Source of the DNA: Halobaculum saliterrae
Lineage (GTDB): Archaea; Halobacteriota; Halobacteria; Halobacteriales; Haloferacaceae
Length of the DNA: 64,000 nucleotides
Assembly (NCBI RefSeq): GCF_009831625.1
Contig: NZ_WUUS01000013.1
Location: 37,830-101,829 of the forward strand
Direction of reading: 5' to 3'
Within the stretch, counting starts at the first letter, position 1; each line of letters opens with the position of its first letter. A program made the position numbers and the translations under genes. The notes below the pieces were generated by a model that saw only the letters and a list, made by a program, of their open reading frames with translations, was not told the DNA's origin and did not search any database. Positions 10,435 to 64,000 of the stretch are shown one piece after another.

Positions 10435-10785
10435 AATGGACGTACACGGTCCAATTCCCGATATCATCGGGACTTCTTGAGACCTGTTCCACCCAAGCTG
10501 AATCATGACCTCATCCAATCAAACTCGAAGGTCGGAAATCACCCGATGGCGGCATGTTCCACCCAAATCCTCAATGGGTGGAACACTAACGAGCTTGGCG
10601 GAATGGGTGGAACACGCTCACGTCCAGCGGTTTGCAACCAGCCATAGTGAGTGTTCCACCCAACAACCAACTAGGATAGAACGGGGGGTCCCCGTTGGGA
10701 CCAAGGGATTGGATCGCGACCAACAGCAGCGTGAGTTCTGTGCTGGCTCAGAGCCAGTGAGAGCCATACGAGGTGCTACGTGAGG
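10435..10785. promoter_or_regulatory. Intergenic five-copy TGTTCCACCC site array
   Basis: This 351-nt gap between the coupling ATPase and the primase holds five copies of a 12-bp site. TGTTCCACCCAA occurs on + at 10485, 10555 and 10652; the reverse form ATGGGTGGAACA occurs at 10574 and 10603. Copies two and three face each other as an 11-bp inverted repeat with a 9-nt centre (10555-10585). No convincing gene is present; a possible 92-codon frame from 10505 runs through the repeats and looks fortuitous. The array is probably an operator for the primase operon or part of an origin or transfer site. Confidence 0.75.
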
Positions 10786-12048
10786 ATGAGTGAGCCTATG
10801 ATCGGCGAGCCGGAGGCGATTCCGGAGACGTTACGCGAACGCGACCAGTGGGTGTGCTGGCGAGAAGAGGAGCGAGACGGCAAACCGACAAAGATTCCGG
10901 TGACGCCAGGGGCTGGGGGGTTCGCATCAGCAACCGAGTCAGAGACCTGGGCGAGTTTCGGGGCGGCACTCGACTACACCGAGACGGAGTATGCCGACGG
11001 CGTCGGGTTCGTGTTTACTGACGACGATCCCATCGTCGGCGTCGATCTAGACGACTGCCGCGATCCCGAGACAGACGATGTCGACGACGCGGCGTTGGAC
11101 ATCATCAGGCGACTCGACTCCTATACGGAGGTGTCACCGTCCGGTACTGGCTATCATGTCCTGATCACCGGCGAACTCCCCGACGGGCGGAACCGTCGCG
11201 GGAGCGTCGAACTGTACGACACGGCACGCTTTTTTACCGTCACTGGCGATCACGTCGAGCGGACACCCACTCGCGTTGCACGCCGACAGGACGCGGTCAC
11301 AGCGATTCACCGCGAATACGTCCAGGACACCGAGCGTGACACAGCATCCGAGTCCGAACAGCGTGGTGGCGCTGACCCCCGGTCACCGACGACCGATGCA
11401 GCTGACGTTGACGTCGACCTCGAAGACGAGGACCTCCTCGAGAAAGCGCGAAACGCATCCAACAGCGAGAAGTTCGAGCGGCTCTGGAACGGGAATACGG
11501 TCGGCTACGACAGTCAGTCCGAGGCCGACATGGCGCTGTGCTGTTTGCTGGCGTTCTGGACCGGTGGCGACCAGACGCAGATGGAGCAGCTGTTCCGCCA
11601 GTCGGGATTGATACGAGAGAAGTGGGACGAGGTTCACTACGCTGACGGGTCGACGTACGGCGAGAAGACCATCGAGCGAGCGATTGCGACCACGTCGGAA
11701 TTCTACGACCCGGACGCCGGCGACGATACCGCAGATCCTCACGGCCCACCTGACAGGGTCACTGCTGGTAGTACGCCTGACGAGGCAGACAGGAGTCGTA
11801 CGTACCTGGCGGAGAAAAACCGCTTGTTGAGCGAGCGCGTCGACGAACTCGAGGCAACACTCGAACAGAAGACTGAGCGGATCGAGACCCTCGAAGCAGA
11901 GATCGAACGCCTCACCGACGAACTCGCAGCCCGTGACGGGGAAACTGAGCAGTCCCAAGAGGAAGACTCCGGTACTGCGAGCGAGACCGGTGATGACCCA
12001 GAGCCAGCCTCTATGTTGCGTCGATTCTTCGGTGGTCGGTCTGAGTAG
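10786..12048 (+). CDS. PrimPol-type (NrS-1/P4-like) primase-polymerase with coiled-coil tail
   Basis: About 420 aa. The N-terminal domain has the archaeo-eukaryotic primase signature of mobile-element primases: GVDLDDC (metal-binding Asp pair, about residue 85), SPSGTGYHV (about 117-125) and ELYDTARFFTVTG (about 141-153). A helical region resembling the middle of phage primases follows (about 220-310), then a heptad-rich coiled coil (about 345-395). There is no SF3 helicase domain, so it may work with a separate helicase. Starts at 10780 (GTG), 10786 and 10798 are all possible. Such enzymes prime replication of plasmids and phages, and it lies directly downstream of the TGTTCCACCC array. Confidence 0.8.
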   Translation: MSEPMIGEPEAIPETLRERDQWVCWREEERDGKPTKIPVTPGAGGFASATESETWASFGAALDYTETEYADGVGFVFTDDDPIVGVDLDDCRDPETDDVDDAALDIIRRLDSYTEVSPSGTGYHVLITGELPDGRNRRGSVELYDTARFFTVTGDHVERTPTRVARRQDAVTAIHREYVQDTERDTASESEQRGGADPRSPTTDAADVDVDLEDEDLLEKARNASNSEKFERLWNGNTVGYDSQSEADMALCCLLAFWTGGDQTQMEQLFRQSGLIREKWDEVHYADGSTYGEKTIERAIATTSEFYDPDAGDDTADPHGPPDRVTAGSTPDEADRSRTYLAEKNRLLSERVDELEATLEQKTERIETLEAEIERLTDELAARDGETEQSQEEDSGTASETGDDPEPASMLRRFFGGRSE

Positions 12049-48385: not shown

Positions 48386-50722
48386 ATGGAGACGTATCTG
48401 GAGCATAAAAAGTCTCAATTTGAATCGGATCCTAGTGGGCAGGTACGTTTATCGGACGCAGAAGTGCAGGAAGAGGAAAGGTGGGATCCAGATGCTCCTG
48501 CGGTAGCTTTAGACCACTTAATTGCTGTATTTCGGCGACGTGGTCTGGTTAGAAGGGATGCTGTGCTGCTACCAGTTCATGAACCCGGGTCAGCATCACT
48601 AACTGGCGAATACATATTATACACTGAAGACGAATACGGTCACTCGCTTCAATATTATAATACAGATAATGGAGCTCCAGACTTCATTGAATATGACAAC
48701 GCCTCACGTTCGGGCTTACTGTATCGGCTCCGTTTCTGGGATCGACGATTTTCAAACCCGGATGATCTCTTATCTGAAGTTCTAGACGATCGTCCTCCGT
48801 ATCGACCGAATCCTATCAGTGCTGAGTCCCCGGTGAGTGCTGACGAGTACTCTACTTTCGTTGATGAAACGCTCGAATTTGTCCGAACTGAGCTTTTATC
48901 CCAACATCAAGGAGACTTAGATACCATAGTTGGGCACGGTGTAGATGTTGACCGTTCTGGAGGGGGAGTGGTAAGATCCACTGATATCCACAGAGGGCCT
49001 TCTACGATAACTTGTAACGTTGATCTCCCGCCGTCAGACTCGCTCGGACGTATGTACGAACCTGTGCAGGATGTATATGACATCTATGAAGGTAATACAG
49101 TCGCTCTTCTATGGGAGGATGATTATGATGATACCGCAGCTTTAGATGGGATTATCACTCGAATCGCCGAAAGATCTATCGTAATTGATGATGGGTTTGG
49201 AACCTATGACCGGGAGGACGTAGATCTTAGCGAAATTGGGGAAGTCACGCTCCGTGTTGTGCAAAAAGGAGTGGCAGAGCGTCGAGAGTACGAAGCGTTC
49301 AAACAATTGAGCGAGACATCCGAATCACTCCTTCGTGGGGACTCGAATATCGATTTCAGTTCCCCTCTTAATCTGGATTTCACTCCCGATCTGGAATTGA
49401 ATACCTATCAAGAGCGAGCAGCCGTCGATGCGCTTTGTACAGACGACGTATTCTGTATTCACGGACCTCCCGGTACTGGGAAAACCCGGACGCTGGTCAC
49501 GATTATCGAGCACGCGGTCGAAACCGGAGATAGAGTTCTCGTCTGTGCACACTCGAACCAAGCTGTTGACAACATCGTAGCCGGTGAAAGTACCTCTGAG
49601 ACCCCTGACGAAGCCTCTCTTCATCGAATTGTTCAGCGGTTTAGTGCCGAAGATGAACTCTCTGACATTTCGATGGTTCGTATAGGCAGTTCCCGGCAAG
49701 ACGTCGATTCATTTGTCGCCTCCCGGTACTATACCTCTACCAACCGACTAGATTCGAATATCGAGGGTACCGATATTATCGCGTCAACGACTAATACGGC
49801 GGCAGTTCTTGAAGATCGAGACGATGTTAACCTCGATCTCGTGGTAATTGATGAAGCGACGCAGGCATCCGGACCTGCAACGGCTGTCCCATTCGGATGG
49901 GGGAACCGTGTGGAAGAAACCGATCGTGGTCGTCTTCGTCCATACGGGTACCGGACTATCCTCGCTGGCGACCATAGACAGCTACCTCCATTCGTATCGG
50001 ATCCGGAAATGCGCGACCGGGGCCTACACACATCTCTATTTGAGCGACTCCTCGATGTCTATGGAGAGGATCTTGCCCAGACCCTTTACCGTCAGTACCG
50101 AATGCATGAGTCGATTGCCGAATTCGCGAGCCAAGAATTCTATGATGGGAATCTAGAACACGGTGAAGACAACCGGACAGCAACGATTGATGGCCTTACA
50201 CCCCTCCTCGCAATTGATGACAACAGTGGCGAAGCTCAAAATTCCGGTTCAAATTCTTACCACAATCCAACCGAAGCACAGTATGTTGTGGCACAGGCTC
50301 AGCGGGCGCTGAATCACGATGTTGATGCGAGCGATATTGGTGTTATTACTGGATATAGTGATCAACGAGAAACAATTCGCTCTGAACTCGTTAGCAGTAT
50401 CGAGGAGCTCGAATACAATAGCGTCGACGTGGAGACTATTGATAAATTCCAAGGGGGGCAACGAGAAGTCATAATCGTCTCTTTCACCCGGTCGAATCCC
50501 GAGAACGATTCTGGCTTTCTTGAGTCCCCGCCTCAGACGGCACGGAAGCGACTAAATGTAGCTATAACTCGGGCAAAGAAACGTCTCGTGTTAATTGGAG
50601 ATTGGGAGACGCTTTCGACTCCCGCCACTTTCCGTGATTCCTCAGAAAGTTGTGCTGACACCTTTGCCCGTCTCCGAGATTATCTTCAAGATCGAGACTG
50701 TATGGTTTCTAACCGAGGCTAG
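48386..50722 (+). CDS. SF1 (UPF1/DNA2/NAM7-like) helicase of defence island
   Basis: 778 aa. Residues 1-340 form an N-terminal part of unknown fold that includes a possible SH3/OB-like segment (about 235-290). The helicase core follows: Walker A GPPGTGKTRTL (about 360-370), Walker B VIDEATQASG (about 486), motif III GDHRQLPPF (about 528), QYRMHESI, TIDKFQGGQREV (about 683) and RLNVAITRAKKRLVLIGD (about 720-737). UPF1-like helicases of this size are frequent in prokaryotic defence systems. The gene is clearly more AT-rich than the transfer region, a sign of separate origin. It is followed after 16 nt by a small SH3-like gene. Confidence 0.85.
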   Translation: METYLEHKKSQFESDPSGQVRLSDAEVQEEERWDPDAPAVALDHLIAVFRRRGLVRRDAVLLPVHEPGSASLTGEYILYTEDEYGHSLQYYNTDNGAPDFIEYDNASRSGLLYRLRFWDRRFSNPDDLLSEVLDDRPPYRPNPISAESPVSADEYSTFVDETLEFVRTELLSQHQGDLDTIVGHGVDVDRSGGGVVRSTDIHRGPSTITCNVDLPPSDSLGRMYEPVQDVYDIYEGNTVALLWEDDYDDTAALDGIITRIAERSIVIDDGFGTYDREDVDLSEIGEVTLRVVQKGVAERREYEAFKQLSETSESLLRGDSNIDFSSPLNLDFTPDLELNTYQERAAVDALCTDDVFCIHGPPGTGKTRTLVTIIEHAVETGDRVLVCAHSNQAVDNIVAGESTSETPDEASLHRIVQRFSAEDELSDISMVRIGSSRQDVDSFVASRYYTSTNRLDSNIEGTDIIASTTNTAAVLEDRDDVNLDLVVIDEATQASGPATAVPFGWGNRVEETDRGRLRPYGYRTILAGDHRQLPPFVSDPEMRDRGLHTSLFERLLDVYGEDLAQTLYRQYRMHESIAEFASQEFYDGNLEHGEDNRTATIDGLTPLLAIDDNSGEAQNSGSNSYHNPTEAQYVVAQAQRALNHDVDASDIGVITGYSDQRETIRSELVSSIEELEYNSVDVETIDKFQGGQREVIIVSFTRSNPENDSGFLESPPQTARKRLNVAITRAKKRLVLIGDWETLSTPATFRDSSESCADTFARLRDYLQDRDCMVSNRG

Positions 50723-50738
50723 CTCAACCACTTTAGCT

Positions 50739-50960
50739 ATGAAACGATTTGACACCGGAGATCGTGTTCGCATAGATATTCCAGATGAGACGGATCCGGA
50801 CCATGAGCGGCTTCATAGTCGTCAAGGAATGGTTACTGAGATCATTCCTGATGAGGCAGGGACAGTAACTGGTGATGAACGGGAGAGCTATCTTTTCAAA
50901 GTGGAACTAGATAATGGCGAAACTGTCGACGTTCGCTGGCGAGATCTACGGCCAATATGA
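50739..50960 (+). CDS. Small SH3/KOW-like protein
   Basis: 73 aa from the ATG at 50739. Beta-rich sequence with the pattern RFDTGDRVRIDIPDE, HSRQGMVTEIIPDEAG and YLFKVELDNGETVDVRWRDLRPI. This resembles the SH3-like barrel of KOW or nitrile-hydratase-beta-type domains. It is 16 nt downstream of the SF1 helicase and probably co-expressed, perhaps as an accessory subunit. No catalytic residues are expected. Confidence 0.65.
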   Translation: MKRFDTGDRVRIDIPDETDPDHERLHSRQGMVTEIIPDEAGTVTGDERESYLFKVELDNGETVDVRWRDLRPI

Positions 50961-51045
50961 CTGGTTCGGACGTAATTGACTTGGTAGCCCTATTCCGTGG
51001 TCACTAAACACTAAGTTTGCGTACTGAATACATCTCGACATTACG

Positions 51046-54000
51046 ATGATCTCACTTCCTCCGCTTGTCGATAACGCCAACAGAACACTAGAAGACGCTT
51101 ACAAACGGATTATTCCCCAGATCGAGGAAGGCCGTATCGCAACTGGCTACTTTTATCTCTCAGGATTCGACCTCTACCGGGAAGATCTTGAAAACCTGGC
51201 TGACACCGATGAGCTCGGTCACGCTCCGCTTCGGATTTTGATGGGTCGTCAGACGAATAGGGGAACTGCTGACGAAATCGGTGAGGGGCAGAATCTCAAA
51301 GAGGAACTCAAAAGAGAGGTGAGAGAAAGCATCTCGGAGCTGAATAACGCCCAGATCGGGCGACTAGACCGGCTACGAGACTTTATCGCCGAAGGCGAGG
51401 TGAGCGTCCGTGTGCGAAATCCTGAAAATGGTTACTTCCACGCAAAGGGTGCGTCATTTCGAGCACCACTCGAAGACGACGAAGATTGGGGGCAAGAGGA
51501 GGATGAAGACACGCGGCCTTGCGCTACTGTCGTCGGTTCTTCGAACTTCACTAGAAGCGGCCACCAGAACAATATCGAGCTGAACCTCACGAGTCAGGAT
51601 CGACACAAGGCCGAAGCGTTCGAGGAGTGGTACGATAACCAGTGGGCCAACGCCGAGGAGTTCAGTAAGGAGATCATCCGAATTATCGAGAACAGCAAGG
51701 AGTACCAGGACTGGAAGGAACAGCAGGAGGACGAGTCCGACAAGGAGACGTCATCCGAGAAGCTGGGCACGTATCTCGAACCGTTCGAGCTCTACAAGCT
51801 GCTCGCTTACGATGAACTGAGTGGGAACGTCAACATCCGCGACAGTCCACTGTACTACTTCCAGAAGCTCGGGTACGAGAGTGCAAAGGAGAAGCTCTCC
51901 CAGTTCAACGGGTGCATAGTCTCCGACTCGGTCGGCCTGGGAAAATCATTTATTGGCGGTGAGCTCCTCCACGACTACCGCCAACGTGGCGACCACTGTC
52001 TCCTCATTGTCCCGGCCAACCTGACTGATCAGTGGGAAGACCTACTCCAGAACGACACTGACGAAGACGGCAATCCGTACTTCGGGTTAGAGGTAGACGG
52101 CACACACCTTGACGTGATGAGTATCAGCAAGTTCCAGAGTCTCTCCTACGACGTGGTGCAGGACCTCAAAGACAGGTTCGACGTCCTGCTTATCGACGAG
52201 GCTCATCGGTTCCGGAACTACGGGAAGTGGCGACCGAATCCGAACCACGATGATGACTACAAGGGGACGCGACGACACGCGAATCTCAGGCAGCTCCGCG
52301 GAAAGACGATGATTATGCTGACCGCGACCCCGATCAATAACAGCGCTACCGACCTAAAGAACCTCATCAGCCTGTTCACCAGCCCGGAGGAACTTCGGAA
52401 CAAGGCGTCACTCGACTTTGATGCGTTCGACGAATATATCGAACTCTCGGAGACGCGAAAACGCATTGTATCCGGGAAAGAGGAGGTCGACGACGACGAA
52501 CAGCAAGAAATCACCGAGCAGCTACAGCGACACTCCTCTGAGATTTCGAATATCTTGAACGAAGTGATGGTTCTCCGGACGCGTAAGCACGTCAAAGATC
52601 AGATTCAGGACAGCGAAGACTTCGAGATGAGCTTCAAGCCGCCGAAACTCAACAAGCAACAGTACTCCCTGCCGGCGGCCTACCAGCCAATATATCGGAT
52701 GCTTCCCGACGTGATGGACGCCCTCCACCTTCCCCACATCACAGTCAAAAACCCGAAAGCGGGGAGCACGCTGAAAGCTCTCTACAAGCTGAACCTCCTC
52801 AAACGGCTCGAGTCCTCAACGTACGCGTTCGTCCAGTCGATCGAGACGCTGCATCAGAGCGAACGCCAGCTTCTCGGTCTTCTTGGTGAACTCCCCGAAG
52901 ACGAAGACATCGATATGCTCCGAACTGTTCGGGAGGGGGATGACTCTGAACTCGGTGACTTTGTCGAAGGAGCCGACGCTGCTGAAGATCTCGAACAAAC
53001 ACTCGAAGAATTCGGCTTCGATACCACCGCTATTCAATCGGAAGAAGGAGCTGATACCGAGGGAGATGAACTGGCAGACGCCACCATCGGCGAGGTGAAG
53101 ACGTACATTAGGGAGGACCTCACCCTTCTATCGTATTTCCTCTCGCAGTTCATCGGTGATGTCGCCCGTGATGCGGGTGATGTGAGTGATTATGCGGTTT
53201 CCACGCGGCAATGGCTCGCTGACCACGACGCTGGTGTCCTCCCAGATATTCCTGAAGAAGAGATGAATCCGATTCTCTACCCGAATAGTGATCTGAGCGA
53301 AGTCGACCCCGCCACACGCGACTTTTACGAGGCCGTCTTTTCACTCCGCGAGTTCCGCGATCCGAAGATCGACCGACTTGCAGATGTCCTCACTAATCAC
53401 GATCAGAAGGTGCTCATCTTCACGCAGTATCGGGCAACTGCAGACTATGTCTATCGAACCCTCTGTGACAACGAGGATTCACCACTCACAGAGGCGAACA
53501 GTGCCGTCGTCAAGGGCGGTGACGAGAATAAGCAGGACATCATTCAACGCTTTGCACCCGAAGCGTCAGGCTACCAGCAAACGCTCGCCGAGTCGGGGGA
53601 CTCAGAGCTACAGTACGTAGTGGCCACTGATACGCTGAGTGAAGGGGTTAATCTTCAGGACGTTCATGTGGTGGTCAATTACGACCTGCCGTGGAACCCG
53701 ATGCGGATTGTCCAGCGTGTCGGGCGAGTCGACCGGATCGGGAGTACCGCCGAGAAACACGTCCACAACTTCTACCCGGACGGCGACATCGAGGCGGCGA
53801 TCAAGCTCCTGCAACGCCTACAGGCAAAGATCAACGATATCGCGCTCATCGTCGGAAAGGAGAACAACATCCTCGATCCGAACGAAGACCAGGTTCTTGA
53901 AAAGACAGGTGTAGATACGGAGAAGACTATCGGGGAATTACAGGTGGACGAGATCGAGGACTCTCTCCAGAAGTCTCGTGAAATTGACGACGTGAATGAA

Positions 54001-54852
54001 CTCGACGACACGAGCAAGAATCCGCTCCTCCGCAATGCGGGGAGTAATGAACACGCTGCGTTCGAGCGGTACCTTCTGAAGCGAGAACTGAACGAGGATT
54101 ACGACCTGACTGCGGAAGACTTCGAGTACGCTGAGGACTTCTTCGGTGACCCGCCGGAAGAACGGGAATTCCTCTACACGAATGTAACTGACCACGATGC
54201 CGGTCCTCGTCCGGGCGTATTCGCCCTTGCCCACCTCTGGTTCGACGATGATGACCACGAGTCCCCGCTTGGTCGCGTCCGTCGTGCTTTCTACTACAAG
54301 CCCTTCGCCGACGAGGTCAAAGAGCGGCCCGTGAGCACGCTCAACATTGACCCTTCAGTTGACGGCGAACCGATTACCGGAAATCCAGAGACGGTATTAT
54401 CGAATCGCGGTGAGATTCAAGCAGTACTTGACGAGCGTCTGGAGGTGATTCGAGAAGGCCAAGTTGAGGGTGCTTTCAAACAGGGAGAGGCCTTCTCGAA
54501 GGAACAGGAGACGATCCTCGATTTCATCAGTCACTACGTTCAGCCGAACCACGGCGATGAGCCAGCTCCTGTCGAAGAGTTCGAAACAATGGGAGAATGG
54601 GCTACCGACATCGAAGAGCGGCTGCAGGAGGTAAAGCTCGCGAACACGGATGAAGACCGAATTCTACGGGAAATCTTTCGACAGAATGAGCAGTACGACT
54701 CCTTCCCAGAGTGGCCGACCGGGGAGTTCCTCAGTCAGCTTGAGGAGTTCTTGGAAGAGAACGTCGAAGCCTCAACTGAATACCAGACGAAACTGATGGG
54801 AGAGAGTGATGTACAAGCGAAGCTCGTATGCTGGGGGGTTGTCGGACAGTGA
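51046..54852 (+). CDS. PLD-nuclease/SNF2 helicase, probable restriction effector
   Basis: 1268 aa. The N-terminal phospholipase-D-type nuclease has FHAKG (about residue 130) and VVGSSNFTRSG (about 161-171), the HxK...GSxxN signature. The SNF2-type SF2 core follows: SDSVGLGKSF (Walker A, about 294-303), LLIDEAHRF (about 381), MLTATPINN (about 424) and RVGRVDRIG (about 890). A long C-terminal region is unassigned. DISARM DrmD and other restriction effectors share the SNF2 part. Beside an Eco57I-type methyltransferase it most likely cuts or degrades unmodified DNA. It converges on the silent methyltransferase cassette 8 nt away. Confidence 0.88.
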   Translation: MISLPPLVDNANRTLEDAYKRIIPQIEEGRIATGYFYLSGFDLYREDLENLADTDELGHAPLRILMGRQTNRGTADEIGEGQNLKEELKREVRESISELNNAQIGRLDRLRDFIAEGEVSVRVRNPENGYFHAKGASFRAPLEDDEDWGQEEDEDTRPCATVVGSSNFTRSGHQNNIELNLTSQDRHKAEAFEEWYDNQWANAEEFSKEIIRIIENSKEYQDWKEQQEDESDKETSSEKLGTYLEPFELYKLLAYDELSGNVNIRDSPLYYFQKLGYESAKEKLSQFNGCIVSDSVGLGKSFIGGELLHDYRQRGDHCLLIVPANLTDQWEDLLQNDTDEDGNPYFGLEVDGTHLDVMSISKFQSLSYDVVQDLKDRFDVLLIDEAHRFRNYGKWRPNPNHDDDYKGTRRHANLRQLRGKTMIMLTATPINNSATDLKNLISLFTSPEELRNKASLDFDAFDEYIELSETRKRIVSGKEEVDDDEQQEITEQLQRHSSEISNILNEVMVLRTRKHVKDQIQDSEDFEMSFKPPKLNKQQYSLPAAYQPIYRMLPDVMDALHLPHITVKNPKAGSTLKALYKLNLLKRLESSTYAFVQSIETLHQSERQLLGLLGELPEDEDIDMLRTVREGDDSELGDFVEGADAAEDLEQTLEEFGFDTTAIQSEEGADTEGDELADATIGEVKTYIREDLTLLSYFLSQFIGDVARDAGDVSDYAVSTRQWLADHDAGVLPDIPEEEMNPILYPNSDLSEVDPATRDFYEAVFSLREFRDPKIDRLADVLTNHDQKVLIFTQYRATADYVYRTLCDNEDSPLTEANSAVVKGGDENKQDIIQRFAPEASGYQQTLAESGDSELQYVVATDTLSEGVNLQDVHVVVNYDLPWNPMRIVQRVGRVDRIGSTAEKHVHNFYPDGDIEAAIKLLQRLQAKINDIALIVGKENNILDPNEDQVLEKTGVDTEKTIGELQVDEIEDSLQKSREIDDVNELDDTSKNPLLRNAGSNEHAAFERYLLKRELNEDYDLTAEDFEYAEDFFGDPPEEREFLYTNVTDHDAGPRPGVFALAHLWFDDDDHESPLGRVRRAFYYKPFADEVKERPVSTLNIDPSVDGEPITGNPETVLSNRGEIQAVLDERLEVIREGQVEGAFKQGEAFSKEQETILDFISHYVQPNHGDEPAPVEEFETMGEWATDIEERLQEVKLANTDEDRILREIFRQNEQYDSFPEWPTGEFLSQLEEFLEENVEASTEYQTKLMGESDVQAKLVCWGVVGQ

Positions 54853-54860
54853 TTCGGGAG

Positions 54861-57167
54861 CTACGGTAGGGGCCCCTTCTGATCCAGTAAATCATATTTC
54901 TCCAAGACCAGATCGAAGTACATCTCGCCCATCAGCTTCGGATTCTCAACGCGATGGAAGTCGTCGAGGACAAACTTCACATCACGACGTTCCAGGCCAT
55001 ACGCGTGGAATGCAGCCGCGTCGATTTCAGCCTGTAATTCTCTACGTTCTTGATCTTCTACTGCTGCCGCGATTCCGCCGAGTCGCTCACGCATTTCTTT
55101 GAATTCTTCCCCGTAACAGTTCAATCGGGCAGCTCGTTCAGCGATATAATGGAACCAATCATCTCCGTCGGTGAGGCGTGGTAGCTGAGATTCCAGTAGC
55201 TCGCGCTTGACGATGTGCGTCTCGACTTTGGTCCGCATCAGGAAATCGAACGCAATGCTGTTCAGGAGCCCCGTTGCCACGAAGAGTTCTTGATCCGTAA
55301 ATCGCCGGACGTAGGGTGACCGAAGTGGGGACTCTGTGAGGTGTTCCTCTTCCGGCTCAATGGCGAACGGCTTGAACGTGTTAATGGTGTGGAGACAGAT
55401 GACATCCTTCGGAAGTACCGTCGCTATTATCGTCCGCTCGTCTCGGGATCGAGAAACGTCTCGAATGCCGATTCGGTATTCAGTACAATCAAGCAAGACA
55501 TCTTCTTCCTCAAGTCCGTGACCACGGTGTTCTTCGAGTAATTTATCTACGAATTGAACTTGAGACTTGCTCGTCTCTGAACCTCCAAAGGCGTCGTAGA
55601 TTGCTCGCTTGAGGTTCCCCCGATTGAATTTCTTCTCTCGAACACGGTACTGGGCACTATTCGGTGGATCATACATCCCCTGACTCCAATACCGAGGGTT
55701 GTCCAAACTCTCTGTGTGGGTATTATCGTGTTCGAATTGGTGGATATTCGCTCCCCCATATACAGGATAATCAGCATTATCAGGGGAATCTTGCAATCGA
55801 TCTTTATCGGTGGACTCGACGAACTCCTTCGTCAACATATCCACTGACCAAGCACCTTCGATATTCTCATCTAGAGGCGGTTGAGTGACTACCTTGCTGA
55901 GGACATCGGCTTCGACTTGTGATGTGATCGAGGGGAAAATTCTACCCTCGGGAGAATAATTGAGAAGCACTTGTCGTGGGATTTCTGCGGCCACGTCCTC
56001 GATATTATAGACCACGTCCATACTCCGTTGATTGAAAATACCTCGGAGTCGACTGGTCTTCCCTCCATACTCAAATGTCAGAATTGCAAATCGGTACTGC
56101 CGGTGTATCTGCTCAAAGATTCCCTTATTTTCGAACCCGATGAGGTTCTCTATGTCTGTATGGTCCAGTAGATGCGTTCGGAGGTCTTTCCCCATCACCC
56201 CACCGAAGATAGTCCCTGGGAGGAGTAGACTCACCTTCACGCCATCTCTGGAGAGTCTGAAGACCCGCTCAAGAAAAAGAGCCGAGAGTTCGTTCTTTGT
56301 CGGCATCGTTCGACCACCCACCACCGGAGATTGGAGCTTATAGACATCTCCCTGCGTGAAGAAGTCTGCCTGAGTTTCCATCGATTCCTTGTAGTCCTCC
56401 CATTCCCACGCAACTTCTGGGTTTGTGAGGAGGTCTTCCATCACCCCGTCTTTTTCCTCCGACGGATAGGTACGGAACTGCTCATCGTAGCGGATGAAGA
56501 AGTCGTCGCGATTCGCGTAGAGCATGTCCCATGGAGGGTTCCCAATGAACACATCGAATCCGCCTTTCTCGAAAACGTCGGCGAACTCCAACGGCCAGTG
56601 AAAGGGGGACCACTCCCGAATTTCCTCGATCGTTATGTCGTCAAAACCAGCGTCTTGGAATTCTCGCCGAAGGATCTTGTCAAATTTGTCCCGGTGTTCC
56701 TCTATTCTGTCTTCTGCCTCTCTCCGCCATTCTTGGGCTTCAACACTGGTCTCCGCTTTCTTGTGCTTCTCGATGGCCTCTTTCACGTCCTCAAAACGAG
56801 TTTTCACCTCCCAAGAATCGAGATCGCTGTCTCCGTCTTCGTTACTCTCGATGTCCGTATCGAGTTGACCGATTAGGCTGTTGCCCTGTCGTACGTTGAA
56901 ATCGATGTTGGGGAGCGGCTCCACCTCGCTCGGTTCATCCTCGATATCAGCGACCATCGACAACCAGAGCCTGAGCTTGCAAATCTCAACAGCACCTTCG
57001 TCGATATCGACTCCGTACAAATTGTTGAGGATGGCCGTTCGCTTTGCGTACAGTGATGAGGAGCCTTTTCCAGACTCGATTTCCTCTATCTCTTCTCGCG
57101 TTCTGGATTCTAGCTCCCAGCCTTGCCCCTCAGCTTCGAGCCGCTGGAAATACTCAATACATTGCAT
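54861..57167 (-). pseudogene. Silent methyltransferase C-terminal cassette (no promoter, no N-terminus)
   Basis: 768 codons open from ATG 57167, starting MQCIEYFQRLEAEGQ, identical to residues 436 onward of the intact enzyme at 57330. It has the NPPWDML catalytic motif but lacks the SAM-binding motif I and the first about 435 residues. It contains no frameshift or stop, so it is kept by selection. Its C-terminal recognition region (about 500-680) differs from that of the active copy. It begins exactly at the 54-bp inverted repeat. Inversion would fuse it in frame to the promoter and N-terminal half, giving a protein of about 1203 aa. I call it a silent cassette rather than a decayed gene. Confidence 0.88.
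57114..57167 (-). repeat. 54-bp inverted repeat, left copy
   Basis: Exactly complementary in orientation to 58635-58688 over all 54 positions, starting at ATGCAATGTATTGAG. Identity falls sharply on both sides. It is coding in both copies and in the same frame. Confidence 0.95.
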
Positions 57168-57329
57168 CAACTGAGCGTTTCGCTGTTGGCCGTTTTCGAG
57201 TAAATCTGCGAATGCTGGTGAAATAGGAGGTACTTCTCACACTCTGCTCAACAAGTATATTGACCAGTTCAGTCGAAAGTCACCCACATATCCACCATTT
57301 TGATATGAGTAAAGCAACTTTCAGGTGGT

Positions 57330-60300
57330 ATGACTCTCCAGCAGATCACCGCATCCGATATCGCGGGCTGGGACTCTCTACAGGATATAGCGACCTCCTT
57401 CGAAAAACGCGGGCTCAAACCCCGCCCGAAACTAGGGGGCGATAACGAACTCGTAGTTCAGCTTGATGATGACGAATTCATCGTCATCGTCAATGCTGGT
57501 CCCGGCGAGACCGCCACGGATTTCAAACCGGAAAATCGCTCACGGCACACCAACCTCGTTGCTACCAACGACTTCGAGAATTTCACCTTCATCACACGAG
57601 TTCGGAGCTGGGAAGGCCAGCAGCACGGCCGAATTAAGCATCAAAAGATTTCGTTCTCGAAGGAGCAGTTCACGCGGGACAGCGGAGAGAAGAATACTAT
57701 TCTCCAGAAACTGAACTCGATTGAGTATGGTTCCTCTGCTGCGATTTATGATACGCTCTACGACACGCAGCAGGTCGTCAAGGAGTTCTATGAACAGTTC
57801 GAGGATCTCCGGACAGATCTCATTCAAGAGGTCACAGGTATCCCTGATGATCGTGGTGATGCGAAGCAACGATATGTGCAGGTCATTCTTGACCGGATGA
57901 TCTTCCTATACTTCATCCAAGAAAAGCGCCTCCTTGATCGGAACCCGAATTACCTTCACGAACAGCCGAATGAAGTCGTTGACGAGGGTGGTGACCACTA
58001 CGAAGAGTTCTACGAGCCGCTCTTCTTCGAATACCTCGCAGAAGACAAACAGAACCCTGACTTCGGTAGTCTTCCGTACCTGAACGGTGGCTTGTTCGCA
58101 AGGAATCCTGTCGAAGAGGAGTTTGAGGACGCGAAATTAGGTGGCTCTGCCGAGGAAACGAACGGGCTCTTCGACGATATCCTCGACTTCCTCTCCGACT
58201 GGAATTGGAACGTAGACGAACGACTCGACATTGTCGATCCCAAGAACCTCTCCCCGGCGATCTTGGGCCACATCTTCGAGCAAACGGTCAATCAGAAGGA
58301 AATGGGGGCGTACTACACACCGGAAGAGATAACGGGGTTCATGGCCCGGCGGACGATCCATCCGTATCTGCTCGATCAACTCAACGAGGCTGTGGACGCA
58401 GACTACGACGAGATTGACAATGTGTTCGGATTCCCCGTGCCCGAGGCAGATAGTAGCGCAGAAGCTGTTGCCGATGGCGGAAACATAACTCAGCAAGTTC
58501 CAACGGAAAATGTCCAGACCAGCCATGTGGAGACTCTCTACCACGACATTCTGAAGGAAGCACACATTCTCGATCCCGCCGTAGGAAGTGGCGCCTTCCT
58601 GCTCGCCGCACAGGAGGTGCTGATGGACCTATACATGCAATGTATTGAGTATTTCCAGCGGCTCGAAGCTGAGGGGCAAGGCTGGGAGTTGGAGAGTCGT
58701 AGCCGTGAAGAATTGGAGAGAATAGAAGAGGGACATGGAGGGGTCTCACTTTTCGCAAAGCGTTCTATTATCCTTCACAATCTCTATGGGGTCGATATCG
58801 AGGACGGGGCAGTCGAGATCTGCAAACTACGCTTGTGGCTGTCGATGGTCGCTGATATCGAGGACGAACCGAACGAGGTCGAACCACTCCCGAATATTGA
58901 TTTCAACATCCGTCAGGGAAACTCGCTGATCGGGTTCACTGAGCTCCAAGAAGTCGCACGGGAGGATGCTGGCGACGCGTCACTCTCGAATTGGGGTGTC
59001 GGAACTGCAGTCAAAGATCTCTATGAGGATGTCATCCGGGAACAGGACCGCCATCGAGCTGCGGATTCAGCGCGTGAAGCGCAGAACGCTCGTAAAATGG
59101 CTGAGCGAAAAATCGACACTCACAGCGAGGAGCTTAATGAGAAAATCCGCGATCAGTTCAACGAACTTGTCGACGAGGATGTTTCTCTTGAGGAATTAGA
59201 GGAGTTCTCACCGTTTCATTGGGTGCTCGAGTTCGCGACAGTCTATCGCGAAGGCGGCTTTGATGTCATCATTGGAAATCCACCGTGGGATGAGCTGAAG
59301 CCGTACCGGACGGACTTCTTCCCAAAGTACGATACTGAGTTTCGTAGCCGCCCGCCAAGTGAGAAGGACAAGAAGGTAGAGGAACTCTTAGAGAACCCTG
59401 AGATCGGTGCCGAATGGGAGAAGTTCCAGCGTGACAAGGAACGGCAAGCGACCTATATCAACCAGAGTGGAGAATACGAGTACCAGACGCCAAGCGTAGA
59501 AGGGCAACAGGTTGCACGGACGAACGACCTGTCCTTACTGTTCTTCGAGCGAGTTTATGATATCGTCAGAGACGGTGGTTATGTTTCACAGCTGCTTCCT
59601 GGTCCGTTCTTCAATGCCGCCGCGGGGAAGGATTTGCGAGTACATGCCTTGGAAGAGTCTGAAATTCAGAGTATCATCGGATTTGAAAACCGAGGCATCT
59701 TCTCCGACATAGATACTAGATACAACTTCGGTATCGTTACGCTTCGAACAGAGGGAAGCACTGACACTGTCCACGGAATCTTTCATCAGACTTCCGTTGA
59801 CGCTCTTCGGTCAATTGACGATGTAGCTCTAGAAATTCCAGCGCGCATCCTCAAAGAGTATTCCCCCGGAGCTCGAATTTTCCCCAACATCGAGGAACAA
59901 CAGGAGGTCTCAGTGCTGGATAAAATCCTCCAGACACCTCCATTGGCGACTGAAATTGAAGGTGCTTGGCGTACGGTCCTGTACAAGGAATTGGATCGGG
60001 GACGAGACCGGGATAGATTCATCGAAGACGAATCCAAAGGGGATTATCCGGTCTATCAGGGAAAGAACATCCACCAATTCTGTTATGAGTCGACCTACGT
60101 CGACGACCTCGAACCCATCTCTTTGTGGAGTGTTGATGAGGACAACGAGGAACTGAGCGCGAAGCGTCGCGTTCGAGAGAAGAACTTCCGTGCCCGGGAC
60201 GACGCGATCAGCCTCAAGAAGGCAATCTACAGCAAGTTCGCTGATGACCCTGAGTTCAGCCATCTCCCGTCAAGTTCCCAGAAGCGTTTCGTCAACCGAC

Positions 60301-60983
60301 TGCTAACGGAGGAATTCGACCGCCCCGAACTTTCTTTGGAAGACGTCCGTCTCCATAGTTCTGAGTACCGACTTGTGCTCCGTGAGGTCGCTCGTGCAAC
60401 TGACGAACGGACGCTCATTGCGGCTGTAATCCCACCAGGTGGAGTCGTCGTCCATACGCTGTACACGGTCCGGCCATTCGAGGCGAATCCTACCAAGGGC
60501 GATCTTTCGGAGTTTCCGATGCACAGTGCTTACGACCGTGTTTTCACCGATAAGGAGCTTTTCGTCGCGCTTGGGCTGATCAACAGTATCCCCTTCGATT
60601 TCTTGATGCGAACAAAGGTTGATTCCCACGCCTCGAAGTACAAGTTTGAGGAGTCACAGGCCCCCCGACTCACCGAGGGCGACGACTGGTTCCACTACAT
60701 CGCTGATCGAGCGGCGAAGCTCAGCTGCTACGGTGAAGAGTTTGCTGAAATGCGTGAGCGACTCGGTGAGATTGAGCTGGCGACGGATATGGAGACTCGG
60801 CGTGAACTACAAGCCGAAGTCGACGCGGCCGTGTTTCACGCATATGGGCTGGATGAGGAGGAAATGCAGTTCGTCCTTGATGACTTCCATCGGGTGTCGA
60901 ATCCTCGAATCATGACAGAAGCGTACTTCGAGAAGGTTGCTGAGAAATACACTCATCTTGGAGACGTAGGGCCGATGGAATAA
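57330..60983 (+). CDS. Eco57I-type adenine DNA methyltransferase (active orientation)
   Basis: 1217 aa. An N-terminal domain of about 300 residues has no recognised nuclease motif. Motif I is DPAVGSGAFLLAA (about 415-427) and motif IV is IGNPPWDEL (about 648-656), the pair expected for N6-adenine methylation. The C-terminal about 350 residues form a TaqI/Eco57I-type specificity region. Size and plan match methylases of Type IIG, BREX (PglX) and DISARM class 1, but partner genes of BREX (PglZ, BrxC) are absent. The start has a good AGGTGG site. Codons 436-453 lie in the inverted repeat, where the protein can be switched. It likely protects self DNA from the PLD/SNF2 effector. Confidence 0.92.
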   Translation: MTLQQITASDIAGWDSLQDIATSFEKRGLKPRPKLGGDNELVVQLDDDEFIVIVNAGPGETATDFKPENRSRHTNLVATNDFENFTFITRVRSWEGQQHGRIKHQKISFSKEQFTRDSGEKNTILQKLNSIEYGSSAAIYDTLYDTQQVVKEFYEQFEDLRTDLIQEVTGIPDDRGDAKQRYVQVILDRMIFLYFIQEKRLLDRNPNYLHEQPNEVVDEGGDHYEEFYEPLFFEYLAEDKQNPDFGSLPYLNGGLFARNPVEEEFEDAKLGGSAEETNGLFDDILDFLSDWNWNVDERLDIVDPKNLSPAILGHIFEQTVNQKEMGAYYTPEEITGFMARRTIHPYLLDQLNEAVDADYDEIDNVFGFPVPEADSSAEAVADGGNITQQVPTENVQTSHVETLYHDILKEAHILDPAVGSGAFLLAAQEVLMDLYMQCIEYFQRLEAEGQGWELESRSREELERIEEGHGGVSLFAKRSIILHNLYGVDIEDGAVEICKLRLWLSMVADIEDEPNEVEPLPNIDFNIRQGNSLIGFTELQEVAREDAGDASLSNWGVGTAVKDLYEDVIREQDRHRAADSAREAQNARKMAERKIDTHSEELNEKIRDQFNELVDEDVSLEELEEFSPFHWVLEFATVYREGGFDVIIGNPPWDELKPYRTDFFPKYDTEFRSRPPSEKDKKVEELLENPEIGAEWEKFQRDKERQATYINQSGEYEYQTPSVEGQQVARTNDLSLLFFERVYDIVRDGGYVSQLLPGPFFNAAAGKDLRVHALEESEIQSIIGFENRGIFSDIDTRYNFGIVTLRTEGSTDTVHGIFHQTSVDALRSIDDVALEIPARILKEYSPGARIFPNIEEQQEVSVLDKILQTPPLATEIEGAWRTVLYKELDRGRDRDRFIEDESKGDYPVYQGKNIHQFCYESTYVDDLEPISLWSVDEDNEELSAKRRVREKNFRARDDAISLKKAIYSKFADDPEFSHLPSSSQKRFVNRLLTEEFDRPELSLEDVRLHSSEYRLVLREVARATDERTLIAAVIPPGGVVVHTLYTVRPFEANPTKGDLSEFPMHSAYDRVFTDKELFVALGLINSIPFDFLMRTKVDSHASKYKFEESQAPRLTEGDDWFHYIADRAAKLSCYGEEFAEMRERLGEIELATDMETRRELQAEVDAAVFHAYGLDEEEMQFVLDDFHRVSNPRIMTEAYFEKVAEKYTHLGDVGPME
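58635..58688 (+). repeat. 54-bp inverted repeat, right copy
   Basis: Inside the active methyltransferase, codons 436-453, in inverse orientation to 57114-57167. Surrounding homologous sequence is only roughly 75-80% alike by eye. Confidence 0.95.
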
Positions 60984-61032
60984 CTATTGAATTAGCGCCA
61001 CGCCTCGTTTCCGAACATCAATGGGTTCAGCT

Positions 61033-61704
61033 TCACTGATGAATACTGTCCAGCGCTCGCCGGGTCATTGCTCCATCGACATTCAGATATTGACGTGCAG
61101 TCGTGATGTCCTCCCAACCGAACATTGCTCGGAGAGCGGGAAGATCCAAGCCTCTTCCTGCATGGTACGATGCTGCTGTGGCACGTAGTCCGTGTAACGA
61201 GGTTGCGTCATTGGACAGTTCTGGAGACAGTTTCAGGGCCGTTTCCAGACGCCGCTGTAAGGTCGAGAACGAATACGGCCAGCCACCATGTTCGTCGAGT
61301 AACAATTCAACCGCGACTCGAACTCGATACGAAAAGTGGTACGGAACTGTTCGAGATGCGGCTTCTGTTTTCGGGAGCCAATAACGCTCAGCAAAGCTCT
61401 GGAAATCCGTATTGGGATTGTGATCCAGCCGTTGTTTCACCGCCTGTCGACAGTATCCACAGATGCCACCATCCCGTCCCTTCGTACAGTTTTGCTGTGT
61501 GGGAATCTGGATCATCTGCCGCTCTCGATCAACCCACGATGTCGACAAGTGCGTTGTTTCTCCAGGTCTAAGTCCAAGACGCCCTCCAAGAAGAATGGCC
61601 GCTCGTGTTTCGAGCCTCCGTTGCGTATCTCCTATTCGCCCAGCTCCTTCTAACAGTAGTTCGAACTCGCGTTCGCTAAGTGCCCTCTCTCGTGTTGCTA
61701 CCAT
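61033..61704 (-). CDS. Tyrosine recombinase, catalytic domain only (candidate invertase)
   Basis: 223 aa from the ATG at 61704 (TTG at 61728 possible). All catalytic features are visible: Arg in GLRPGE, a Lys region near NCTKGRDGG, HGLRA (His-x2-Arg), a Trp in FGWEDI and the nucleophile Tyr in TARQYL. A Cys pair set (CTKGRDGGICGYC) inserted between suggests a zinc site. The N-terminal core-binding domain is absent; the frame is closed upstream by a stop. Haloarchaeal virus phiCh1 encodes a lambda-type integrase that inverts tail-fibre genes, a precedent for this role. It reads towards the methyltransferase. Confidence 0.85.
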   Translation of the reverse strand: MVATRERALSEREFELLLEGAGRIGDTQRRLETRAAILLGGRLGLRPGETTHLSTSWVDRERQMIQIPTQQNCTKGRDGGICGYCRQAVKQRLDHNPNTDFQSFAERYWLPKTEAASRTVPYHFSYRVRVAVELLLDEHGGWPYSFSTLQRRLETALKLSPELSNDATSLHGLRATAASYHAGRGLDLPALRAMFGWEDITTARQYLNVDGAMTRRALDSIHQ

Positions 61705-61835
61705 ATCTATCGCTGTCTGTCGATACAAAGATAACCCGCATCTTCTTCGAGTGTCATGATGAATCGGCTCACAGCCGCCAGAATTGCCGTCTGATATGAC
61801 AGGAAGTACTTATGGGTGCCGTCCGGACGAAGCGT

Positions 61836-62402
61836 ATGGGACTCTTTGAGACCTTATTTAGCTCATCCACCGGGGATACTGTCCCTCAGGCACAGCAACC
61901 GAGTCAGCACGAAATATTTCCCGAGGACAAGTACAATGTCGCATACGCTGTAACCGCTCGGCGTGAAGAAATTCGGGCGTTAGAACACCTTCTAGAAGCG
62001 GATCAGACCTCACCTACCGCCTTGGAGGCCGAGCCTTTCCTTCAGGATATAATCGAAGATATGGAGCGGGATCGGGAATACTCCCTCCGCCTTCGCACCT
62101 CTGGGGAGGAGCTCGTCGACGATATCCGTGAACTCATAGAGCATTGGGACAATCAGGTAGATGAGCAGATAGGGACGATTTGGTGGCCTATCGGAGCAGA
62201 TACGACGTTCAGGTTGTACCTCCATTATCTGGAACTCCGTGCTGACGCGGAGGATGACCAATTTTCGTTCCCGGAGTCTGCTGGACAGGTTCACACTCTC
62301 GTCCAGCGTGGTCTCAGTGCAATAGAAGATGATGACGACTCGAAGCTCGCTGTAGTCCACAAGCGAGACATTCCTTGGGAAGAACCAGCTGAGGACAGCT
62401 GA
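61836..62402 (+). CDS. Unknown helical protein
   Basis: 188 aa from the ATG at 61836, which suits a leaderless start behind a TTAT box near 61810; an ATG at 61812 is an alternative. It is mostly helical (TARREEIRALEHLLEADQT, EDMERDREYSLRLRTSGEELVDDI) and contains TIWWPIGADTTFRLYLHYLELRADAEDD. No cysteines, signals or catalytic motifs are seen. It starts a small + strand group after the recombinase. Function unknown. Confidence 0.65.
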   Translation: MGLFETLFSSSTGDTVPQAQQPSQHEIFPEDKYNVAYAVTARREEIRALEHLLEADQTSPTALEAEPFLQDIIEDMERDREYSLRLRTSGEELVDDIRELIEHWDNQVDEQIGTIWWPIGADTTFRLYLHYLELRADAEDDQFSFPESAGQVHTLVQRGLSAIEDDDDSKLAVVHKRDIPWEEPAEDS

Positions 62403-62460
62403 TCCAGTTTGCTCCTTCTCAAAAGAGACCGATTAATTGTATCCAGTATCAAACCCAGCT

Positions 62461-62892
62461 ATGGTAGAAATCTCAGACTCCCTGTGTTCGCTGTTCACTG
62501 CGAAAATTAAGGAGGATGGTACATTCGTCATCGAGATTCCTTCGAGTGAGATCAGGCATGGGGCGCTGACAGTTGATAAAACGTACCGCATCGCTCTTCT
62601 TGATTCATCCTCCGAAGCTGAATCAACATCTCCACAGGGCCCACGGCAACTCGCCTCTCAGGGGAACACGAGCCATGATTCATCTGGTCCTCCTGTTGAT
62701 GAGGGAGAAGTGCGCGACGTGACAATCGAAACCGTCGGTGATCAAGGGGACGGTATTGCGAAAGTCGAACGGGGGTACGTCGTGATCGTTCCCGGCGCTC
62801 AGCCCGGCGACGAGCCAACAGTCGAAATCGAACAAGTTCAGGAGAACGTCGCGTTTGCGAGCATCGTCGATAGCGATCCGCGAGCACTCTAA
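62461..62892 (+). CDS. TRAM-domain protein
   Basis: 143 aa from the ATG at 62461. The C-terminal 55 residues are a TRAM domain: EVRDVTIETVGDQGDGIAKVERGYVVIVPGAQPGDE and the closing strand. TRAM folds bind RNA (tRNA modification and other RNA-chaperone roles); short TRAM proteins are abundant in haloarchaea. The N-terminal half has a strand pair (DGTFVIEIPSSEIRHGAL) and a disordered Ser/Gln-rich linker, which is an unusual addition. Confidence 0.8.
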   Translation: MVEISDSLCSLFTAKIKEDGTFVIEIPSSEIRHGALTVDKTYRIALLDSSSEAESTSPQGPRQLASQGNTSHDSSGPPVDEGEVRDVTIETVGDQGDGIAKVERGYVVIVPGAQPGDEPTVEIEQVQENVAFASIVDSDPRAL

Positions 62893-63016
62893 CCCATTGT
62901 CCCTTCTGTGGATCGGTCTTCTTCTCGGTAAACCATCGATGTGAGAAGGCTCCGTTCGAGTTTGTCTGAAGGAGGTGGTTCTGAAAGTCACGTCACGTTT
63001 TCTTCACGCGTTCGCG

Positions 63017-63322
63017 ATGGCACAACCTTCGAGGGCCGATATTCAATCTATGACAAAGGAACCGATTGAGGTACTCGACGACCTGGCCGACCAGGTCGCC
63101 GATGAGTTCGAGGCGTATAGACAGCCGGACGAATTCAAGGATGTCTCGCTCGTGATCGAGAACAGCGACGAGGAACATCCGACGCTGATCGTCCACGTTG
63201 ATAGAGAGGACGCGGAGGCCCTTGCCGACCGTATTGATGCGTTCCTCCGCGAGCACGGTGCTCGTACTGAATGGGAACGACACTCAGCTATGGATGTCCG
63301 TGTGTTAGCGACGGTCGACTGA
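63017..63322 (+). CDS. Small unknown protein (alpha/beta)
   Basis: 101 aa from the ATG at 63017 or 90 aa from 63050. It reads helix (PIEVLDDLADQVADEFEAY), strand (VSLVIENSDEEHPTLIVHVD), helix (DAEALADRIDAFLREHGA), strand (MDVRVLATVD), a small two-layer alpha/beta unit. No known family by eye. It stands alone with about 120 nt upstream. Confidence 0.62.
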   Translation: MAQPSRADIQSMTKEPIEVLDDLADQVADEFEAYRQPDEFKDVSLVIENSDEEHPTLIVHVDREDAEALADRIDAFLREHGARTEWERHSAMDVRVLATVD

Positions 63323-63406
63323 CACCGCCTCTCCAATTTTTTGACTGACTCCAAGCACCGCTGAAGGGCCCTATCTTCATTTCCGATCAAGGGAGTCCCG
63401 ACCGCT

Positions 63407-64000
63407 TCAGCTTAGGTGGTCAATCTGTGCAGACAGATACTCTTGGAGAGCGGTGACCGTTTCTTCTGAGACAGCTGAGGCCCCGAAGTCACTCCGATAC
63501 CCGTGCTTGAGTTCATCACTCTCTATGATCTCCAGTCCACGCTCAAGCTGCTCCCGTAGCGCATCGTCGTCTCCTCGCCGAAGGTGAGGCGTGACAGCGT
63601 CGAGATCGATTTCTTCTGCTACTGCCAGGACGTCCCGGAGGTCTGTTTCACGGCCGCTATGGAGCTTTGCCGCGACGAGGACTGCTCCATCGATGACTCT
63701 GCCTGTGGTCGTCACTGTACCTCCGCTCACCTCCTGTTGGTGGCTGTGGTCGTACAGGTAGTCGAACGACCACTGTGCCTCCGTCTGGCGACACCCGAGT
63801 CCGTTTACCAGGAGATCGAAGCCGATCGGCTGCTGCGGCGTGAGCCGCTTCTCGTACTCGATTACTTCGGTGTCGTAGAACCATTTCTTGGCGTGACTGT
63901 CCGTTTCCTCGAATCCCTGCTGTTCGAGGAACTCGACGAAGTCAGCCTTGGAGTCCGGCGCGACGACGATATCGAGGTCCGTGGAGAAGCGAGCATTGAA
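63407..64000 (-). CDS. Nucleotidyltransferase-type protein (5' partial)
   Basis: The frame is open to the right edge of the window (198 codons visible, stop at 63407). The edge reads RFSTDLDIVVAPDS, the DxD metal motif of the nucleotidyltransferase fold as seen in AbiEii, MNT and DUF6036-like proteins. A segment LTPQQPIGFDLLVNG and a helical C-terminal part (DLRDVLAVAEEIDLDAV) follow. It could be a toxin or antitoxin of a nucleotidyltransferase module whose partner would lie further right. A GTG at 63730 is internal, not the start. Confidence 0.72.
   Translation of the reverse strand, partial: FNARFSTDLDIVVAPDSKADFVEFLEQQGFEETDSHAKKWFYDTEVIEYEKRLTPQQPIGFDLLVNGLGCRQTEAQWSFDYLYDHSHQQEVSGGTVTTTGRVIDGAVLVAAKLHSGRETDLRDVLAVAEEIDLDAVTPHLRRGDDDALREQLERGLEIIESDELKHGYRSDFGASAVSEETVTALQEYLSAQIDHLS

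Follow-up and report, generated by a model that had tools for sequence, protein, structure and literature searches.

An invertible segment predicted to join one methyltransferase N-terminus to either of two C-terminal bodies in the haloarchaeon Halobaculum saliterrae

Introduction

Invertible methyltransferases are a well-known bacterial route to methylome diversity, and SpnIII/PsrA is the pneumococcal locus name for the Type I hsdS inversion. At Type I hsdS loci, as set out in the available portions of two reports, a tyrosine recombinase and inverted repeats alter the recognition part of the methyltransferase (PMC4948785, PMC7096588). A bacteriophage exclusion (BREX) locus of Lactobacillus rhamnosus encodes an integrase together with full and partial forms of PglX, and the accessible sections of its description tie PglX heterogeneity to phase variation (PMC7513527). 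Here we analyze a 64,000-nucleotide stretch of Halobaculum saliterrae (contig NZ_WUUS01000013.1; hereafter the window), in which a pair of 54-bp inverted repeats links an Eco57I-type adenine methyltransferase gene to an N-terminally truncated partner on the opposite strand, with a tyrosine recombinase gene adjoining.

An initial annotation, made from the letters of the window alone, had read the locus as an invertible methyltransferase, a kind known in bacteria (hsdS, pglX), and had called a haloarchaeal case not standard. The literature that we searched bears this out, as we found in it no invertible methyltransferase from a cellular archaeon; many subscription papers lay outside its reach, and a description elsewhere is possible. 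In the parts of the sources at hand, a scan of 209 datasets reported no inversion in its 6 archaeal samples (PMC5903667), a review of archaeal tyrosine recombinases mentioned methyltransferases 0 times (PMC8371274), and a survey of restriction genes in Halobacteria had 0 occurrences of "phase" and "inversion" (PMC6471742). Among haloarchaeal viruses, the phase variation of phiCh1 is summarized in the available text of one paper (PMC3950731). Type-2 BREX-related (BR) systems combine an N6-methyltransferase with a Swi2/Snf2 helicase that has an N-terminal HKD nuclease, and the main text of that report, as far as it was available, contains none of the terms inversion, recombinase and integrase (PMC12839542).

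Results

The two arms of the inverted repeat were found to be exact reverse complements (54/54 bases) located, as first described, at the same codons of the plus-strand gene and its minus-strand partner. They form the longest perfect inverted repeat in the window, the others of at least 22 bp measuring 25, 23 and 22 bp. The segment between the arms (Table 1) consists of a 162-bp spacer and codons 1-435 of the methyltransferase, which at present continue into one C-terminal body (body A), and the partner gene constitutes the other (body B). When the segment was inverted in silico, the reading frame was kept and an intact methyltransferase of 1,203 aa resulted, its first 435 residues unchanged and followed by the other body, in agreement with the in-frame inversion of 1,467 bp that had been proposed. 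Likewise, 57330-60983 and 54861-57170 both lack stops and keep the NPPW motif, as the initial annotation had stated. The open reading frame (ORF) of body B extends to 57170 from a TTG (769 aa), with an ATG at 57167, and has no internal stops.

We then compared the arms with their surroundings. Informative arm codons are identical at 16 of 16 positions, compared with 162 of 380 (43%) elsewhere in the bodies (p ~2e-6), and the arm identity is therefore beyond chance and beyond protein constraint. Directly outside the arm, identity was ~50% (30/60 nt); the 75-80% given earlier for this neighborhood is too high, as 77-82% was obtained only for wider arms. Just outside the arms are a 25-bp repeat without mismatch and a 188-nt stretch that is 77% identical.

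We searched related genomes for the flipped arrangement, as had been proposed, and found it in a second copy within the same genome, in Halorussus vallis, and between Halorubrum salinarum and H. salipaludis; the breakpoints coincide with the 54-bp arms. Queried with the methyltransferase, the H. saliterrae genome returned four matching sites; besides the two in the window, contig C12 has a full-length one and a truncated one, and the first 16 kb of C12 proved to be a second copy of most of the block. Window positions 50737-57167 and 58635-64000 match C12 in reverse and 56880-58922 matches it forward, with the change at 57167 and 58635; the segment aligns to the C12 copy in the flipped direction only (93.6% over 1,468 bp). 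Between the two Halorubrum species the segment is flipped at 99.5% identity, with flanks at 98.1% and 99.6%.

The H. vallis plasmid record NZ_CP100003.1 (167,465 bp) holds both orientations. Its bases 1-46183 match 121286-167465 from first base to last at 99.95-99.99% apart from the flipped piece, so that the locus is present twice in the record, and its annotated genes repeat in largely the same order in both end regions. This redundancy resembles the overlapping ends of a circular contig left untrimmed and, given 46 kb of direct terminal redundancy, the true length of this "complete circular" plasmid is likely ~121.3 kb. In the pair (L090/L091) the segment is identical at 1467/1467 positions but inverted; the left flank is 100% identical over 8,494 bp, and the right flank aligns over 8,757 bp without a mismatch but with 2 gap bases. 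The DNA lying between the arm and the outer 25-bp repeat had not moved, which places the exchange within the 54-bp arms.

Across 15 loci that use this crossover site (site 1), the N-terminus faces the body next to the recombinase gene in 10 and the body next to the SNF2 helicase gene in 5. H. vallis is counted twice here, one of the 10 (Natrialba SSL1) was deduced across contig ends, and the orientation of Halosimplex carlsbadense, one of the 5, was deduced because its contig ends in the arm. The count leaves out Natrinema sp. DC36, split by an insertion sequence (IS), and L100, L101 and L106, which have a body and a recombinase but no N-terminus. The ends of four draft contigs (L016, L027/L098, L100 and L106) fall within or at the border of the 54-bp sequence, a pattern anticipated when an assembler is faced with two paths; the contigs of L100 and L106 lack the other arm, so the repeat there is deduced. 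In the Natrinema gene (L097, 8346-10891), the insertion, annotated as an IS6 family transposase, splits the shared N-terminus and creates a 1,115-bp inverted repeat.

Next, we examined the bodies. We take DPAVGSGAFL in the shared N-terminus to be the S-adenosylmethionine (SAM) motif, and NPPW (motif IV) and the recognition part presumably belong to the bodies. When their alignment is divided into stretches of 60 columns, bodies A and B are 62-78% identical in the two stretches at either end and 30-60% identical between these. The recombinase-side body varies among loci, being either 96-97% or 56-58% identical to body A of the window. The two bodies probably differ in their DNA target site. The ratio of nonsynonymous to synonymous substitution rates (dN/dS) was 0.04-0.05 for body A when compared with its counterparts in 6 relatives, where it is active or silent, and 0.11-0.12 for body B when compared with its counterparts in 5 relatives, where both states likewise occur; over 36 pairs (21 from 7 loci for body A, 15 from 6 loci for body B), from loci chosen for unbroken bodies, it was 0.03-0.15. 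These values suggest that unbroken bodies, whether silent or active, are under strong purifying selection, and the low ratios in silent bodies argue that these are not bodies that are never expressed. A static duplication or a pseudogene is ruled out by the flip in relatives together with the purifying selection on unbroken bodies.

The recombinase gene encodes the catalytic R, HxxR, W and Y, which are invariant in an alignment of 50 sequences; judged by its length, the protein has no core-binding domain. A structural model built with these 50 sequences (predicted local distance difference test, pLDDT, 85.8) matched Tn1549 Int and XerA at E <1e-4 and Cre at ~1e-3, and a sequence search of the PDB with the recombinase gave no match. 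The cysteines C73, C82 and C85 are also invariant in the alignment and are a possible metal site in the catalytic domain. The protein encoded at 61033-61704 is likely to be the invertase of the segment.

We determined how often such a recombinase accompanies a second body in 391 genomes of the class, in which the N-terminus was found at 52 places (rows) in 43 genomes; a recombinase at least 40% identical and within 9 kb was counted as present. Second body and recombinase occurred together in 13 rows, and neither occurred in 36, one of which (L152) has no upstream sequence. The 3 exceptions of 52 were a second body whose recombinase lies at the other end of the contig and two rows with recombinase only, which are pieces of the IS-split Natrinema gene. 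Fisher's test for the association gave p 2e-9, a value that overstates independence because the loci are related. A perfect repeat of at least 27 bp was present in 14/14 rows with a second body and 0/38 without. Methyltransferases that have a 54-bp-type repeat without paired cassettes, which the initial annotation had named as contrary evidence, numbered 0 among the 36 rows lacking second body and recombinase (L152 again having no upstream sequence). Among 25 named loci found separately, some from the same genomes, 6 had both and 18 had neither, L030 among the 18 having no upstream sequence; the remaining locus stops at the repeat.

Recombinase relatives at E 1e-40 or better were present in 57 of the 391 genomes. 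Among those examined, relatives at least 75% identical lie beside this methyltransferase family, and below 75% the neighborhoods are mixed. For the relatives in L113-L117, no recognized methyltransferase adjoins among the neighbors scanned, which were not all of them. In L108 (G051:C30:9000-28000, 4896-11470) a relative (65%) lies between two same-strand DUF1156 methyltransferase genes with shared stretches that are 72-74% identical at the DNA level; these genes may be a further pair of methyltransferases that recombine. In L107, L109, L110 and L111, relatives (64-66%) lie directly beside other Eco57I-type methyltransferases (~1,276-1,437 aa), with no inverted repeat of at least 20 bp found there; these four loci point to a wider link between the recombinase family and methyltransferases.

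The history of the arms was examined in the same material. The arms of the window and of the C12 copy differ at 4 of 54 positions, yet both arms are identical within each copy, indicating that arms evolve together; this and the arm codons described above agree with the earlier proposal that recombination maintains the site. The arms have no mismatch in 10 of the 15 site-1 loci (one with 47/54 bases available), and of the 11 arm columns that vary between loci, 7 agree in both arms in all 15. An arm-pattern scan matched 14 of the 391 genomes. Nine of these have the AT-rich arm sequence, all with paired bodies (Natrinema's being IS-split); the other 5 have different synonymous codons and a single match, four having loci with a second crossover site (site 2) and one a single-body locus. 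At the four site-2 loci, perfect repeats of 27 to 80 bp place the crossover ~150 bp downstream, where the codons specify GVDIDxGAVEICKL. Each orientation is represented by two of them, and one (L105) is truncated and has no SNF2 gene nearby; their recombinase is a more distant version (75-78% identical). A scan of IMG/VR with the site-1 pattern returned one contig, whose piece (L122) matches over 24 bp only and encodes 0 of 9 query proteins, and we rejected it as a chance match. When 15 spacers were aligned, TTCATATGAG/TTGATATGAG was present in all 12 site-1 rows and in none of the 3 site-2 rows. Position and this conserved AT-rich stretch would place the methyltransferase promoter in the 162-bp spacer, and the partner at 54861-57170 appears to be promoterless.

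We also compared the recombinase with a phage collection, in which 20 records matched. The best viral match was the HCTV-5 integrase (44.3%), followed by Int1 of phiH and ChaoS9, CGphi46 and Int1 of phiCh1 (40-44% over 96-97%; phiCh1 Int1 40% identical), and two Halorubrum virus records matched at 31%. The phiCh1 and phiH records (MK450543.1 and MK002701.1) annotate int1 within an invertible tail-fibre segment. A core shared by the phage repeats and the two crossover sites was considered and rejected, none being found in a gapless comparison.

The gene for the PLD-SNF2 protein, which is likely to be the nuclease/helicase effector of a restriction-like system, lies within 12 kb of 46/52 N-terminus rows, paired or single-body. 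Before it, at 48386-50722, is a gene for an IGHMBP2/UPF1-like helicase of 778 aa, also seen in two Halorubrum relatives and not found in the other loci searched.

Membership in BREX, DISARM, Type-2 BR or Type I restriction-modification (RM) systems was rejected on gene content. No PglZ (PF08665) was found in the genome, the control being positive in 2/14 genomes. Among the 9 ORFs scanned between 47146 and 64000 there were no Hsd domains, the enzyme being of the single-chain Eco57I type; no DUF499 ATPase, which defines Type-2 BR and had only a weak partial match on contig C2; no MZB or DUF1998 of DISARM, MZB occurring only on contig C3; and no DUF3780, for which no dedicated search was made. 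Without PglZ, and with DUF499 and MZB only on other contigs, the locus is not BREX, Type-2 BR or DISARM by content. The PADLOC profiles DrmD and DrmMI match the SNF2 and methyltransferase genes as lower-ranked matches. As for Type IIG, the PADLOC REase_MTase_IIG profile matches the methyltransferase and Pfam finds no nuclease domain in it.

Table 1. Coordinates of the features of the switch locus in the window
Feature	Position	Strand	Remarks
PLD(HKD)-SNF2 helicase protein, 1,268 aa	51046..54852	+	Pfam SNF2-rel_dom, Helicase_C, PLDc_2; PADLOC C3a139 HKD+Snf2 7.8e-81
Silent C-terminal body B, N-terminally truncated, with NPPW and recognition region	54861..57167	-	Pfam Eco57I 5e-25
Left crossover arm, 54-bp inverted repeat	57114..57167	.	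Breakpoint of natural flips
Invertible segment, 1,467 bp	57168..58634	+	Opposite orientation in locus rows L005, L091, L093, L095
Spacer with predicted methyltransferase promoter	57168..57329	+	AT-rich TTGATATG ~30 nt before ATG
Active Eco57I-type adenine methyltransferase, 1,217 aa	57330..60983	+	Pfam Eco57I 6.5e-26, N6_Mtase, MmeI_Mtase; PADLOC REase_MTase_IIG 1.3e-71
Shared N-terminus, codons 1-435, with DPAVGSGAFL	57330..58634	+	Conserved across 25 aligned homologues
Right crossover arm, 54-bp inverted repeat, codons 436-453	58635..58688	.	Breakpoint of natural flips
Active C-terminal body A	58689..60983	+	Protein 54% identical to body B from codon 436 onward (413/767)
Tyrosine recombinase, 223 aa from first ATG	61033..61704	-	Pfam Phage_integrase 9.5e-11; 49 bp past active body

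Discussion

Taken together, these data make it highly probable that the segment flips between the 54-bp repeats, likely by way of the adjacent tyrosine recombinase, and that it would thereby join one N-terminus to either of two bodies likely differing in DNA site. This reading draws, at the level of sequence, on the repeats, on both orientations with breakpoints at the repeats, on in-frame products both ways, on selection on both bodies and on the linkage of the recombinase to paired loci. The switch proposed by the initial annotation is thus supported; it had overlooked the adjoining tyrosine recombinase, the C12 copy and the related site-2 loci. In the mechanism that we propose, the recombinase would catalyze the flip of 57168-58634 and, with a promoter inside the segment, one body would be expressed at a time. 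If the bodies differ in target site, orientation would set the predicted methylation, and the PLD-SNF2 protein may act as a restriction-like effector that reads it. This would amount to a switch, at the level of subpopulations, of the methylome and of protection against viruses and plasmids.

The inversion could be real and yet proceed by general homologous recombination of the RadA type, with the recombinase as a passenger, and arms identical over 54 bp and homogenized within loci are what general strand exchange can produce. We consider this quite unlikely: the H. vallis exchange was confined to the arms despite the 25-bp repeat and the 188 nt at 77% just outside, the recombinase goes with paired loci and is near none of the single-body loci, and its more distant version goes with the different crossover site. 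The switch might instead alter dosage or an on/off state, both bodies recognizing the same site, and it is true that they belong to one family with similar end regions. The far lower identity of the stretches between the ends argues against this, and the variation of the recombinase-side body between loci fits diversified recognition, so that a change of dosage alone seems unlikely. Finally, all records but one have one orientation per locus, which would suit rare evolutionary events in a locus fixed within a culture, the silent body being a gene-conversion reservoir and not a phase-variable state. H. vallis, with both orientations and zero other difference in 1,467 bp, makes this very unlikely, as do the similarly low dN/dS of silent and active bodies and the four draft contigs that end in or at the edge of the 54-bp stretch as if the assembler had met two paths (with the second arm deduced in L100 and L106).

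Several observations weigh against the recombinase-driven switch that we favor. The two orientations in the H. vallis record might reflect a genuine tandem duplication of 46 kb and not an overlap left by assembly. Five of the 15 site-1 loci have mismatches between their arms, one mismatch in two loci and two, at the same two columns, in three. Decay is seen in some copies: an IS1595 element lies inside the silent body of Halobaculum roseum, an IS is also present in Natrinema sp. DC36, and Halorussus aquaticus has broken N-termini. The loci are kin by descent and plasmid transfer, and their co-occurrence with the recombinase does not amount to 50 independent events. More distant haloarchaeal relatives of the recombinase are located elsewhere. 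On the viral side, the closest match by E-value, the HCTV-5 integrase, has no annotated invertible segment, and the gapless comparison of phage repeats with the site-1 and site-2 crossover sites gave no likeness beyond shuffles.

With the recombinase-driven switch as the starting point, we lean slightly toward a broader proposal, that haloarchaea took the kind of invertase used by their viruses for the tail fibre to vary methylation. The locus would then be a plasmid-borne archaeal phasevarion, a restriction-like methyltransferase with two specificities, and the recombinase family a general methyltransferase switch module, acting at two or more independent crossover sites in this gene and present in additional copies next to methyltransferases of other types. 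Confirmation would mean that populations of archaea have heritable, reversible epigenetic subtypes, and the Int1 link suggests one switching tool common to viruses and hosts. Because many loci are on plasmids of cultured haloarchaea, the question is accessible to ordinary long-read sequencing.

Among described systems, as far as the available parts of the sources go, hsdS inversion switches specificity genes, whereas the window recombines a single-chain methyltransferase between the SAM motif and NPPW. Type-2 BR, in the accessible text on it, shares with the window an N6-methyltransferase and an HKD-bearing Swi2/Snf2 helicase. The closest enzyme with known inversion is phiCh1 Int1; the phiCh1 and phiH enzymes resemble the recombinase of the window in family, length and halophilic archaeal setting, and their annotated inversion switches tail-fibre proteins. 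They differ in switching a viral tail fibre, in the place of the recombinase gene, which there lies within the inverted DNA, and in repeats that have no sequence relationship to those of the window. The closest design, from the portions of its description at hand, is the L. rhamnosus BREX pglX locus, in which the protein sizes are nearly equal to those of the window; that switch is bacterial and lies in a BREX operon, whereas in the window the partner is a PLD-SNF2 protein and the recombinase is kin to haloviral Int1.

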